The notes beneath the pieces are model-generated. The model saw only the letters and a list, made by a program, of their open reading frames with translations. It ran no database searches and was not told the DNA's origin. This document shows, in pieces, positions 31,981-48,287 of a stretch of 64,000 nucleotides of DNA. The first letter of the stretch is position 1. Each line of letters starts with the position of its first letter. The stretch comes from Acidobacteria bacterium Mor1. Its GTDB lineage: Bacteria > Acidobacteriota > Polarisedimenticolia > Polarisedimenticolales > Polarisedimenticolaceae. Location of the stretch: assembly GCA_001664505.1 (NCBI GenBank), contig CP011806.1:5878153-5942152 (forward strand). Reading direction: 5' to 3'. The position numbers and the translations under genes were made by a program.

Positions 31981-32964
31981 CTAACTATTTGATTTATAGG
32001 GGCTTGGGTCCCCGGGCGGGCGCATGCGAAAACGCTTGTAGCTCCACAGGTACTGTTCCGGACAGCTGCGGACAAGCCGCTCGACATCCTGGTTGAGTGC
32101 CGTGGCCGAGGCCACGACATCCGGGTCGTATACGCCGTCGGATGCGTCGCTGAAATGCAGGTGGAACCCCTGTCCCCGGGGGAGCCGCTCGCCCCAGGCC
32201 AGCACCACTCGCGGTCCCCGGGTCGCCAGGCGGGAGAGCAAGACCATGGTGTTGGCCTGCTTGCCGAAGAACGGGGCGAACACGCCGATGCCGACGCCGG
32301 GATCCTGGTCGGGCAGGATGGCGATGGTCCGCCCTTGATCCACCGCCTTGCGCAGGGTGCGGACGGCGCTGCGGCCGGCGGCCGCGAGTTCGGCGCCGAA
32401 GCGGCCGCGGCCATGGCGGGTCAGCCAGTCGATCTCGGCGATTCGGGGTGACCGGTAGAGCACCGTCATCGGGTAGCGGGTCGAGATGAACGGACCGATC
32501 ACCTCCCAGGAACCCAGGTGGGGGATGGCCAGCACCACGCTGCGGCCTTCCGCCAGGGTGTCGGCGATCAGATGCTCCCCGTCGACCTTTCGAATCAGCG
32601 GGTCGATCCGCTCCCGGGACCAGAACCAGAGCGCACCGATCTCGGCAAAGGCCCGGCCGCTGTGGGCCAGACTGCGCCGCTCGACTTCACGCCGCCGTGC
32701 ATCGCTCCATTCGGGGAATGCGATCTGCAGGTTGACCCGGGTGACCTTGCGTTCGGTCAGCGGAAGCCTGGCCATCAGGCCGCCGATGAAACCGCCGAGG
32801 CCCTGGGCCGCCCGTAGCGGCAGCCGGGAGAGCAGGCGCAGCAGCCGCGGCGCCAGGAACCCGACCACCGGCCGGGACGGAGCCTCCGTGACGCCGAAGA
32901 CGTCGGACTTCGGCCGGATCCCTTCGGCCTGGCGCCGTTCGGGGCGATCGTCCGCAGCGCCCAA
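31981..32964 (-). CDS. Lipid A biosynthesis acyltransferase-like protein (LpxL/HtrB family)
   Basis: 327 residues beginning with TTG directly after the TGA of the upstream gene (TGATTG), with GAGGG just upstream. Basic and hydrophobic N-terminus, then the HxxxxE catalytic motif HLGSWE at 149-154, VLYRSPR and LPDQDPGVG, as in late lipid A acyltransferases that add secondary acyl chains at the inner membrane. The partner gene upstream is an isoaspartyl methyltransferase, unrelated in pathway. It completes the window's LPS set with lpxC and msbA. Confidence 0.9.
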   Translation of the reverse strand: MGAADDRPERRQAEGIRPKSDVFGVTEAPSRPVVGFLAPRLLRLLSRLPLRAAQGLGGFIGGLMARLPLTERKVTRVNLQIAFPEWSDARRREVERRSLAHSGRAFAEIGALWFWSRERIDPLIRKVDGEHLIADTLAEGRSVVLAIPHLGSWEVIGPFISTRYPMTVLYRSPRIAEIDWLTRHGRGRFGAELAAAGRSAVRTLRKAVDQGRTIAILPDQDPGVGIGVFAPFFGKQANTMVLLSRLATRGPRVVLAWGERLPRGQGFHLHFSDASDGVYDPDVVASATALNQDVERLVRSCPEQYLWSYKRFRMRPPGDPSPYKSNS

Positions 32965-33702
32965 TCAGGGGCCCTCTTCGATCTTGCCGGTCATCGGTAC
33001 GAAGCGGACGCCGGCCTTGGTTTCCCGTTCGAAGCGTCCATCCTCGGTGCGGGTCACCACCAGCAGATCCTGGTTCAGCCGGCCGACCGGAATGACCAGG
33101 CGCCCGCCGGGTCCCAGTTGATCCAGCAGCGGCTGGGGGATCGTCGGCGGGGCTGCCGTGACGATGATCGCATCGAAGGGGGCTTCCTCCGGCCAGCCGT
33201 CGAATCCGTCGCCGGTGCGGATCTTGACGTTGCCGTAGCCCAGTTCCGCGAGGATGCCCCGGGCCCGGTCGGCGAGGCCGGGCAGGATCTCGATGCTGTA
33301 GAGCTCGACCTCGCACTGGGCCAGCACCGCGGCCTGATAACCCGAGCCTGTGCCGACCTCGAGGACCTTCATCCCGGGCTGCGGTCGCACCAATTCGGTC
33401 ATCAACGCGACGATGTAGGGCTGGGAGATCGTCTGGTCGAAACCGATGCGCAGCGGCGCGTCCCTGTAAGCGAAGCGCCGATCCTCCAGCGGGACGAAAA
33501 GCTCCCTGGGTACGGTGCGCAGCGCCTTCAGGACCGCGGGGTCCCGGATGCCGCGGGATTCGATTTGTTCGGCGACCATCTCGTCACGCATGACGGCGTA
33601 GTCCTCCTCGGAGGTCGTGTCCGGAGACGGCTCGGGTGAGCCGCAGCCTCCCGCGGCCAGCATCGCGATGAGGAAGCCGGCCGGGACCAGGCACTTGAGC
33701 AT
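32965..33702 (-). CDS. pcm: Protein-L-isoaspartate O-methyltransferase with lipoprotein-type signal
   Basis: 245 residues from the ATG at 33702, which has GGAG upstream; the longer frame to 33795 has no ribosome-binding site. Residues 1-23 are a signal peptide ending in AAGGC, a possible lipobox. The rest is a complete PCMT domain: DQTISQPYIVALM and VLEVGTGSGYQAA (SAM binding), RTGDGFDGW. It repairs isoaspartyl residues using SAM. Export of a SAM-dependent enzyme is odd because SAM is cytoplasmic. Confidence 0.9.
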   Translation of the reverse strand: MLKCLVPAGFLIAMLAAGGCGSPEPSPDTTSEEDYAVMRDEMVAEQIESRGIRDPAVLKALRTVPRELFVPLEDRRFAYRDAPLRIGFDQTISQPYIVALMTELVRPQPGMKVLEVGTGSGYQAAVLAQCEVELYSIEILPGLADRARGILAELGYGNVKIRTGDGFDGWPEEAPFDAIIVTAAPPTIPQPLLDQLGPGGRLVIPVGRLNQDLLVVTRTEDGRFERETKAGVRFVPMTGKIEEGP

Positions 33703-33760
33703 GCGGTTCTCCAGCGAGCACCCGGGACGGACCGCTCTCCCTCCCGCGTCGCGCTCGCCG

Positions 33761-33778
33761 CGATTGTAGCTACAATCG
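33761..33778. promoter_or_regulatory. Perfect 18-bp palindrome with a -10-like hexamer in both directions
   Basis: Two 9-base halves (CGATTGTAG and CTACAATCG) form a perfect inverted repeat between the divergent pcm and 33783 genes. TACAAT occurs on each strand. The plus-strand copy ends 6 bases before the GTG at 33783, which would give a leaderless transcript. It may be a shared promoter core or an operator. Confidence 0.5.
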
Positions 33779-33782
33779 AGCG

Positions 33783-34439
33783 GTGATTGTTCCACGGCAT
33801 GGTCGCTGCCCGGGACCGGGATGGTGGATCCCGGCGATCCTGTTGCTTCTCGCGGCCGGCTGCGGCCCCGGGGAAGAGGACGCGGCCGATGGGGTCCACG
33901 CCTACATCAAGGCGGTCCAGGACGGGAACTTCTCCGCGTTGCGCTGTGCCCTGGCCGGAGCGGCGGCCGAAGGCTCCGATCCCGCCGCCTTCGAGGCCTG
34001 GGCCCGGGACCTCTACCTGCAGTACGAGACCGGCCGGGATCAGGGCGGGGTGGCCTTCGACGAGGAAGGCTTGCTGCTGGTCAAGACCTTCGCCCTGGGC
34101 AAGGGGACCTTCTATTCGGTGCTGCAGTCCGAGAGCTCGGCGGAGACCTTGACCGTCGACACCCTGGTGCGCTTCGGCTACACCCAGATCGACTACTCGG
34201 CCCTCTCGCCGGGCACCACCTTCTATCTGGCGGGCTGGCCTCCGGGGCGGATCCGGGCCATGCGGGTGCCCGGCCGGGCGGACACCTTGCGCGCGGAGGT
34301 GCTGGAACGCATCGTCGTCCGGTGGACCCTGGTGCGGGAGCCGGCGGCAGGCGGCTGTCCCGAGCGATACTCGGTCTACCGGGTCGAGCCGGTAGAGGAC
34401 ACCGGCGAACGGATCAACTGGGCGGTGGAATGGCAGTAG
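33783..34439 (+). CDS. Lipoprotein of unknown function
   Basis: 218 residues from a GTG at 33783. Signal region with lipobox LAAGC (Cys near residue 27), then a helical segment (DGVHAYIKAVQDGNFSALRC) and a mostly beta C-terminus. No family recognised. The gene has no Shine-Dalgarno sequence but a TACAAT hexamer six bases ahead, which suggests leaderless initiation. It overlaps the following patatin gene by 10 bases. Confidence 0.75.
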   Translation: MIVPRHGRCPGPGWWIPAILLLLAAGCGPGEEDAADGVHAYIKAVQDGNFSALRCALAGAAAEGSDPAAFEAWARDLYLQYETGRDQGGVAFDEEGLLLVKTFALGKGTFYSVLQSESSAETLTVDTLVRFGYTQIDYSALSPGTTFYLAGWPPGRIRAMRVPGRADTLRAEVLERIVVRWTLVREPAAGGCPERYSVYRVEPVEDTGERINWAVEWQ

Positions 34440-45914: not shown

Positions 45915-46331
45915 TCAAACCTGGTCGGGCACGAAGCGGGTCAGGTAGATCACCAGCACGCCGCCGACGGCGATCGGTGGCCCCTCGAACCAGGTCCAGT
46001 ACCAGGGCATCCCGGCGAACAGGTCGATGGCCAACATACCCAGGCCGAAGAACGTGTTCATCCAGCCGATGAAGATCACCACCGGGCGCAGCCGCCGCAC
46101 CTGGAAGGAGACCAGGCCGCAGAGCGCGCCGTGGAACCCGTAGAGCAGCGCGATCGACCGGGTCAGGTACTGCATGATCGTGGTGTCGGGGAAGGTGCCC
46201 AGCCCGAGCCAGGCGTGGGAACTCTTCATCCACTCGGTGGGCAGCAGGGCGGCGCCGAAGGCCAGGGTCACGATGGCGGCGATACAGCGGAGCACGAATA
46301 CGAGAAACCGCTCTTCTCGACTCACTTCCAA
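45915..46331 (-). CDS. Small four-helix membrane protein, unknown function
   Basis: 138 residues with four predicted transmembrane helices (about 10-30, 50-72, 78-100 and 112-132). Start is uncertain: TTG at 46331 behind GGGAGATGTC, or GTG at 46325. No family recognised. It lies 75 bases after the selenoperoxiredoxin gene and has a -10-like hexamer (46371-46376), so it may be transcribed separately. Confidence 0.75.
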   Translation of the reverse strand: MEVSREERFLVFVLRCIAAIVTLAFGAALLPTEWMKSSHAWLGLGTFPDTTIMQYLTRSIALLYGFHGALCGLVSFQVRRLRPVVIFIGWMNTFFGLGMLAIDLFAGMPWYWTWFEGPPIAVGGVLVIYLTRFVPDQV

Positions 46332-46406: not shown

Positions 46407-46856
46407 CTACAGGTTGTCCAGATCTTCCAACACCTGGGCGGCGTGCTTCGAGGTCGAGACCTTCTGGTAGATCTTGGCGATCTTGCCGTCGGCGCCGATC
46501 AGGAAGCTGGCCCGCTTGGCGAAACCGAGCATGCCGCGCACCCCGTAGGCCTGGAGCACCTCTCCCTGGGGATCGCACAGCATCGGAAAGGTCAACCCGT
46601 TCTTCTCGACGAAGCGGCGCTGGGCCGCCACCCGGTCGGCGCTGATGCCGACCACCTTGCAGCCTGCCGCCGCGAACTGTTCTTCTGCGTCGCGGAACCC
46701 GCGCGCCTCGATGGTTCAACCCGGGGTGGAAGCCTTGGGAAAGAAGAACAGCAGCACCGGGCTACCCCGCATCGAGTCGAGACGCACGGTCTTGCGGAAG
46801 GCGTCGGGCAGCTCGAACGGGGGTGCCGGATCCCCGACCTGAGGGCCGGAACTCAC
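46407..46856 (-). CDS. bcp: Selenocysteine-containing BCP-type peroxiredoxin
   Basis: 149 residues if the TGA at 46716-46718 is read as selenocysteine (Sec47). Start is the GTG of a GTGA overlap with the upstream propeller gene. The sequence matches the thioredoxin-fold BCP/peroxiredoxin Q family: GDPAPPFELPD, VLLFFFPKASTPG, then U in place of the peroxidatic cysteine, then TIEARGFRD, VVGISADRV and FPMLCDPQG. The resolving Cys five residues later in many BCPs is Arg here. Homology is continuous across the TGA in the same frame. A SECIS-like hairpin follows at 46687-46706. It should reduce peroxides. Conventional annotation will give only the 83-residue C-terminal part. Confidence 0.88.
46687..46706 (-). 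promoter_or_regulatory. Predicted bacterial SECIS element
   Basis: On the minus strand, starting 9 bases after the TGA, GCG-CGCG pairs with CGCG-a-CGC (one bulged A) around an apical GGUUC loop, a 7-bp stem. The loop begins 17 bases after the UGA. Known bacterial SECIS elements have a short stem and an apical loop with a G in the first two positions about 16-37 bases after the UGA, bound by SelB. An alternative pairing gives a 3-base GUU loop. Confidence 0.7.
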
Positions 46857-48190
46857 GCGCCCACCTTGCCCAGCTCGTAGGCCCGCAGCGAAGCACCGTC
46901 CCGCACGAACAGCCGGGTATCCACCAGGGTCGGCGGGGTCCAGGTCTTCTCCTCGGTGATGCGCACCTCGGCCATGCGGGTCAGGCCCTCGGGGCTGAAG
47001 CGCACCATCGCCAGATGTCCCTTGGAATCCAGCAGGATCGTCCGGTCGCCGACGTGCAGCAGGTTGGATTTTTCGTAGCCCCGTTCCCGCCAGAGGATCT
47101 CGCCGCTATCCACCGACACTCCGGCGAGGATCGAGCCCTGGCCGCCGATGTTGGCGTAGACGTGGTTGTCGACCCGCAGGGCGTTCCAGTAGTGCAGGTT
47201 GACCTTGGGGTTGAACCAGATCTGCTCCGCCTCGATGCCGTCGCCGTTGCGCTTCAGGTCGAGCAAGCGGGTCCCGCCGTCGAGCTGGGTCGCGACCCAC
47301 AGCTTGCCGTCGCCGGACCACAGCGGATCGGTCGCGTTGTTGGCGTACCGGTTCTCGACCGGTTCGCGCCACAGCACCCGGCCCTCGCCCGAGGCGACGC
47401 TGATGACCTCGTCGCTGGTCATGTAGACCACCTGGTCGAGGCCGTCGACATCGAAGGCGATCGGCGTGGCGTAGCTGACCGAAGACGGCGGGGTTTCCCA
47501 CAGGATCGAGCCGTCGTCGGGGGAGAGCGCGATCAGGCCGCGGTCCCCGCCGACCAGCACCAGCACCGCGCCGTCGTGGAGTACCGGACTCGCCGCGTAG
47601 CCGAACTTGGGGACCACTCCGCCGAGCTCTTCCACCAGGTCGTGCTTCCACAGCAGGGAGCCGTCCTCACGGGACCAGGAGCGCAGCTGTCCGCCGAAGC
47701 CCAGGGTCACGATGCGGTCGCCGAGGAGCAGCGGCGTGGCGTTGGGGCCGAGGCCGAAGTCGGTGACGATCTGATCGCCGGCGATCGGGGCGGTGTAGCG
47801 GCTCTCCCAGCGGGTCGCGCCGTCCACGGCGGAGAGCGCCACGATCACGTCGTCGTCGCCCTCCCGGTAGGCGCTGTAGAGGGTGTCGCCGGAGGCGGCG
47901 AGCGCCGCGTAGCCCGGTCCGAAGTCCCGCTGCCAGATCAGGGGCGGTCCGTTCTCGGGCCAGCTGTCGGCAAGGTCCCGGGCGGCGAGATGGAAGTCGC
48001 CGGCCGGCCCGCCCCAGGCGGGCCATTCACCGTCGAGGGTGGCCGAGAGCGCGGCACCCGGATCGGGTTCGCTGTCGACCGCCGGTGCATCGGAACCGGA
48101 GCAGCCGGACAGAATCAGCATCGCCGTGCAGAGCGCGAGAAACCCGAAGCCCGCGAGGGACCGGACGGAACGTTTCGGCGTCGATCTCAT
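46853..48190 (-). CDS. PQQ-type beta-propeller lipoprotein upstream of the selenoperoxiredoxin
   Basis: 445 residues from the ATG at 48190, with GGAGG six bases upstream. Lipobox ILSGC (Cys near residue 30), then propeller repeats: LIWQRDFGPGYAALAASGDTL, VIVALSAVDGATRWES, SWSREDGSLLWKHDL, ISVASGEGRVLWREP, GVSVDSGEILWRE. The fold resembles BamB and PQQ-quinoprotein propellers but there are no visible PQQ or metal ligands. It is translationally coupled to the selenoperoxiredoxin gene (GTGA overlap), so the two are made together. Confidence 0.9.
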   Translation of the reverse strand: MRSTPKRSVRSLAGFGFLALCTAMLILSGCSGSDAPAVDSEPDPGAALSATLDGEWPAWGGPAGDFHLAARDLADSWPENGPPLIWQRDFGPGYAALAASGDTLYSAYREGDDDVIVALSAVDGATRWESRYTAPIAGDQIVTDFGLGPNATPLLLGDRIVTLGFGGQLRSWSREDGSLLWKHDLVEELGGVVPKFGYAASPVLHDGAVLVLVGGDRGLIALSPDDGSILWETPPSSVSYATPIAFDVDGLDQVVYMTSDEVISVASGEGRVLWREPVENRYANNATDPLWSGDGKLWVATQLDGGTRLLDLKRNGDGIEAEQIWFNPKVNLHYWNALRVDNHVYANIGGQGSILAGVSVDSGEILWRERGYEKSNLLHVGDRTILLDSKGHLAMVRFSPEGLTRMAEVRITEEKTWTPPTLVDTRLFVRDGASLRAYELGKVGA

Positions 48191-48287
48191 CGAATCCTCC
48201 ATGAATGTCCTGGAGCGCTTCGTCCCGGCCGGGGCTCCGGATTCAGGAACCGGATCCTACCACCGCTGGTGGGCGGCAAACAGGGAG

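Follow-up and report, generated by a model that had tools for sequence, protein, structure and literature searches.

A gene on the minus strand of the 64-kb stretch of DNA analyzed here (the window) almost certainly encodes a selenocysteine (Sec)-containing peroxiredoxin of the PrxQ/BCP group, with an in-frame TGA at the codon for the peroxidatic residue. The evidence is computational and consists of the reading frame, the conservation of the TGA column among homologues, a SECIS-like hairpin downstream of the codon, the Sec machinery of the genome, and the modeled fold of the product.

The gene, its in-frame TGA, and its homologues

Direct reading of the minus strand reveals a frame that runs from a GTG (46856-46854) to a TAG (46409-46407) and contains a single in-frame TGA (46718-46716), preceded by the residues FFFPKASTPG and followed by TIEARGFRD (Table 1). 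The first-pass annotation had placed this TGA at the catalytic Cys position of an otherwise open frame, a claim that was confirmed both by this reading and by the best-matching Pfam family of the product, AhpC-TSA (3.4e-38, cutoff passed): with the TGA taken as a residue, the match covers residues 7 to 128 and is unbroken across the codon. The sequence as deposited reads TGA, not TGC or TGT, and since independent homologues carry TGA too, a base-calling error at codon 47 is very unlikely. Mechanical open reading frame (ORF) finding yields only an 82-amino-acid (aa) ORF from GTG 46655; because this is the first start codon past the TGA, a mechanical caller would lose 67 N-terminal residues, the active site included. 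The earlier expectation of a truncated call was thus correct in kind, and its estimate of 46 lost residues was too low.

Table 1. Coordinates of the predicted selenoprotein gene, its sequence elements, and neighboring genes in the window
Feature	Position	Strand	Description
Predicted selenoprotein peroxiredoxin gene, PrxQ/BCP-like	46407..46856	-	149 aa including U47; GTG start, TAG stop
TGA codon, predicted Sec, residue 47	46716..46718	-	Peroxidatic position, TPGU; TGA or a Cys codon in all 84 homologues
Bacterial SECIS-like hairpin	46687..46706	-	GCGCGCGG-GUU-CCGCG(A)CGC; -11.5 kcal/mol; 20 nt
Upstream gene, BamB/PQQ_2-type beta-propeller	46853..48202	-	Lipoprotein-like N terminus; Pfam PQQ_2, 3.4e-21
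Downstream ORF, membrane-protein-like	45915..46331	-	138 aa; without family match

An AAGGTG-like ribosome-binding site precedes the GTG start, which shares the tetranucleotide GTGA (46853-46856) with the TGA stop of the upstream beta-propeller gene, and translational coupling of the two genes is probable. The upstream product also gave a weak acido-quinoprotein match; on the other side, the downstream ORF is likely the next gene. When a conserved operon partner was sought, the neighbors of two homologues, a ThiF/rhodanese-type protein for L024 and GatB for L025, both neighbors named from their translations only, were found to be unlike those of the window gene, so that the gene neighborhood implies no partner. 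Both strands of the window were scanned for TGA codons flanked on either side by coding-type GC3; this returned two, the peroxiredoxin TGA and one at 32967. The latter was rejected as a second read-through candidate: it is the boundary, as judged from translations only, between two adjacent genes (31981-33795, minus strand), one methyltransferase-like and one acyltransferase-like, which follow one another head to tail in a single frame and mimic a read-through TGA.

Homologue searches took in the class and the phylum to which the source genome belongs, plus named genomes, and 84 sequences, the window's own copy included, covered the residue-47 column. Only Sec (TGA) or Cys codons occupy this column (TGA in 38, TGC in 37, TGT in 9, and any other codon in 0 of 84), and the frame is conserved on both sides of it. 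Because 19 of the 38 TGA sequences were fetched on account of a TGA flagged in the search, the ratio of 38 to 46 is not a frequency; every flagged TGA sits in the residue-47 column. The carriers belong to several families, with named metagenome-assembled genomes (MAGs) from Myxococcales (L024), Acidobacteria (L025 and L028), and TMED198 (L023). The nearest homologue is only about 50% identical to the window gene, so that selection on the latter is not measurable from near relatives. In a maximum-likelihood tree, the window gene groups with L057 (Sec) and L059 (Cys) with moderate support (86), and at least 8 switches between Sec and Cys are required by the tree as drawn, with only 3 forced by well-supported branches. 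This agrees with a published analysis reporting repeated Cys-to-Sec change in peroxiredoxins (PMC1794560).

The same class holds a second Sec peroxiredoxin-like family, with the motif AWFPKAFTGGUTxEC, a Cys at +4, and TGA in 14 of the 14 members fetched (L043, L044, L048, L052, L054, L056, and L088 to L095); a search of the window's own genome for this family at E <= 1e-15 found no member.

Fold, active site, and recycling

Fold and sequence put the protein in the PrxQ/BCP group. The AlphaFold2 model (pLDDT 96, pTM 0.91) has the PrxQ/BCP fold and matches BCP/PrxQ structures with TM scores of 0.85 to 0.90, the best solved-structure match is Mycobacterium tuberculosis BcpB (5epf, 1.3e-24), and the PxxxTPG(C/U)T motif of the group is present. 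Since the best NCBIfam match, the BCP equivalog NF006960 (thioredoxin-dependent thiol peroxidase), scored 122.8 bits against a cutoff of 140, we file the protein as PrxQ/BCP-like and not as an exact equivalog. Compared with BcpB and with Xanthomonas PrxQ (5iiz), it is alike in fold, in sequence, and in its TPG-x-T active-site loop but has Sec in place of Cys and Arg in place of the resolving Cys at +5.

This Arg had already been remarked on in the first-pass annotation, which read it as a hint of a different recycling partner; the replacement is real and is common to other Sec relatives. Among homologues of the TPG/TSG type, the +5 Cys is missing from 10 of 24 Sec sequences versus 7 of 42 Cys sequences (Fisher p = 0.04, relatedness uncorrected). 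The window protein has a resolving Cys neither at +5 (helix 2) nor at about +36 (helix 3), a feature that is not universal in the PrxQ/BCP group, and its only remaining Cys residues are Cys66 (+19) and Cys94 (+47). With no resolving Cys in helix 2, the likeliest recycling route is an external reductant, and Sec47 is probably recycled by an external thiol.

A less likely course for the same selenoprotein, to which we give perhaps a minor share of the probability, is an internal two-residue mechanism in which Cys66 or Cys94 forms a selenylsulfide with Sec47. Consistent with this, a +47 Cys is found in many Sec relatives (e.g., L023, L062, L031, and L101), but it is also found in Cys relatives that have a normal +5 Cys (L021 and L022), and the alternative resolvers known in PrxQ proteins lie at +5 or near +36 (C48 and C84 in Xanthomonas PrxQ). 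Moreover, the domain of L057, the Sec relative that stands closest, contains no further Cys, nor do those of L078 and L099. External recycling is the reading that we carry into the proposed mechanism. UGA codon 47 would be read by SelB with Sec-tRNA-Sec, guided by the downstream hairpin; the selenolate in the TPGU loop would reduce hydroperoxides and be converted to selenenic acid; and an external thiol or a reductant with a thioredoxin fold would most likely resolve the latter (a 1-Sec mechanism), internal resolution through Cys66 or Cys94 being less likely. Selenoenzymes are in general more reactive.

A Cys-based counterpart for such a cycle is M. tuberculosis AhpE, which has the same fold (TM of about 0.90) and, according to its PDB entry title, is a 1-Cys enzyme, working without an internal resolving Cys. 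Besides the use of Cys, AhpE differs from the window protein in that the sequence similarity between the two is lower. AhpE is reduced by mycothiol/mycoredoxin.

The SECIS-like hairpin and the Sec machinery

The SECIS-like hairpin starts 9 nt after the UGA and consists of a 5-bp upper stem, 3 bp beneath a bulge, and an apical GUU loop (46696-46698) that lies 17 nt past the UGA and has G as its first base. With its folding energy of -11.5 kcal/mol, it falls within the constraints of the published bacterial SECIS model, namely, a loop of 3 to 9 nt, an upper stem of 4 to 16 bp, a G within the first two positions of the loop, a spacing of 16 to 37 nt, and a minimum free energy of <= -7.5 (PMC13188914). 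An Rfam scan of the 44- to 49-kb region returned nothing relevant and no bacterial SECIS match.

Resampling of synonymous codons showed the local hairpin of the window gene to be stronger than expected (p = 0.027, which is moderate for a single gene). With the same control, which used pooled codon usage and a short folding stretch chosen after folds had been seen, the mean z was -1.78 in 24 Sec TPG genes versus -0.43 in 46 Cys genes. No signal emerged when a longer stretch of 86 nt was folded (z = -0.17), and we regard the short stretch with the synonymous-codon control as the more fitting test. In the alignment of Sec TPG sequences, 81% of cells pair in the bulged register versus at most 57% in slid versions; a register that omits the bulge and pairs throughout was rejected as a poorer fit (74%). 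The covariation score of this alignment was 0.269, compared with 0.121 in shuffles (0/500), and since the shuffles keep relatedness in, we take the covariation as strong support and not as proof. At pair 14-31, where both bases fall at amino-acid-changing codon positions, 11 of the 22 distinct Sec TPG sequences have GC and 10 have CG.

The source genome of the window (5.985 Mb, single contig, 99.98% complete) had been suggested as the place to look for sel genes, and all four were found there: SelA (442.6 bits), a full-length SelB (330 bits, cutoff 242), a tRNA-Sec whose anticodon is TCA (72.7 bits, against a gathering threshold of 47 in Rfam), and SelD (358 bits). The organism therefore has a complete Sec-decoding set. 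SelA was likewise found in seven of the eight probed genomes that carry a Sec homologue, the eighth (1.1 Mb) being probably a partial MAG. The SelD gene itself (L018, G000:C1:2910488-2911429, minus strand) has an in-frame TGA in CAGUASK, the usual Sec position of SelD; SelD is thus predicted to be a second selenoprotein of this genome, and its gene would be misannotated too.

From these observations we infer that Sec is incorporated in vivo and that the product has peroxidase activity, with recycling as proposed above. That the gene is instead a pseudogene of a Cys-type BCP, with a TGC or TGT turned into TGA by nonsense mutation or sequencing error, is highly improbable. Only one substitution separates TGA from either Cys codon, and an intact Cys paralogue (L022, TPGCTKEAC) is present in the same genome; however, such an event would not account for TGA in exactly the same column in 38 sequences from varied genomes, for an intact and conserved frame after the TGA, for a hairpin that is present in Sec homologues and much weaker in Cys homologues, or for the Sec machinery. 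Less probable still is that the TGA encodes another amino acid through genome-wide reassignment or near-cognate readthrough, for which we found no supporting point and against which stand the TGA stop of the upstream beta-propeller gene, the lack of any other convincing in-frame TGA in the window, the restriction of the residue-47 column to Cys or TGA, and the presence of tRNA-Sec(UCA), SelA, and SelB.

Relation to known Sec peroxiredoxins

As the first-pass annotation recognized, the family is not new. Sec peroxiredoxins (COG1225/PF00578, with a TxxU motif) are an established selenoprotein family (PMC1088965, PMC1794560, PMC2398784, and PMC13188914), and a Sec peroxiredoxin, PrxU of Eubacterium acidaminophilum, was shown experimentally in 2001, a work that we cite through its entry as reference 83 in PMC13188914. 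The 2005 Sargasso Sea survey contained 43 COG1225 Sec peroxiredoxin sequences with the TxxU motif, and the GOS survey contained 253 Sec peroxiredoxins. COG1225 is the BCP group. Since TxxU Sec peroxiredoxins were already established, the window gene joins a known family, with which it shares the predicted peroxidatic Sec, the TxxU motif (T44-P-G-U47), the AhpC-TSA domain, and a downstream SECIS-type hairpin; otherwise alike, it may differ from the published members in having no +5 Cys. PrxU, likewise a Sec peroxiredoxin, is the experimental precedent, but because the NCBIfam PrxU model matches the window protein weakly (41.3 bits, cutoff 270), the latter belongs to another peroxiredoxin subfamily.

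What the present analysis adds is a series of Sec peroxiredoxins, spread over one bacterial phylum, in which a SECIS-like hairpin is conserved. Standard annotation would truncate the window gene and remove the catalytic residue. We speculate, tentatively, that loss of the resolving Cys has occurred repeatedly among Sec PrxQ proteins of this kind and that they act as 1-Sec peroxidases. It is equally speculative that in some of them Sec is the only redox residue and that a resolving Cys becomes less necessary once Sec has been gained. Enzymes whose only redox residue is Sec would allow a clean test of whether Sec takes away the need for a resolving Cys.
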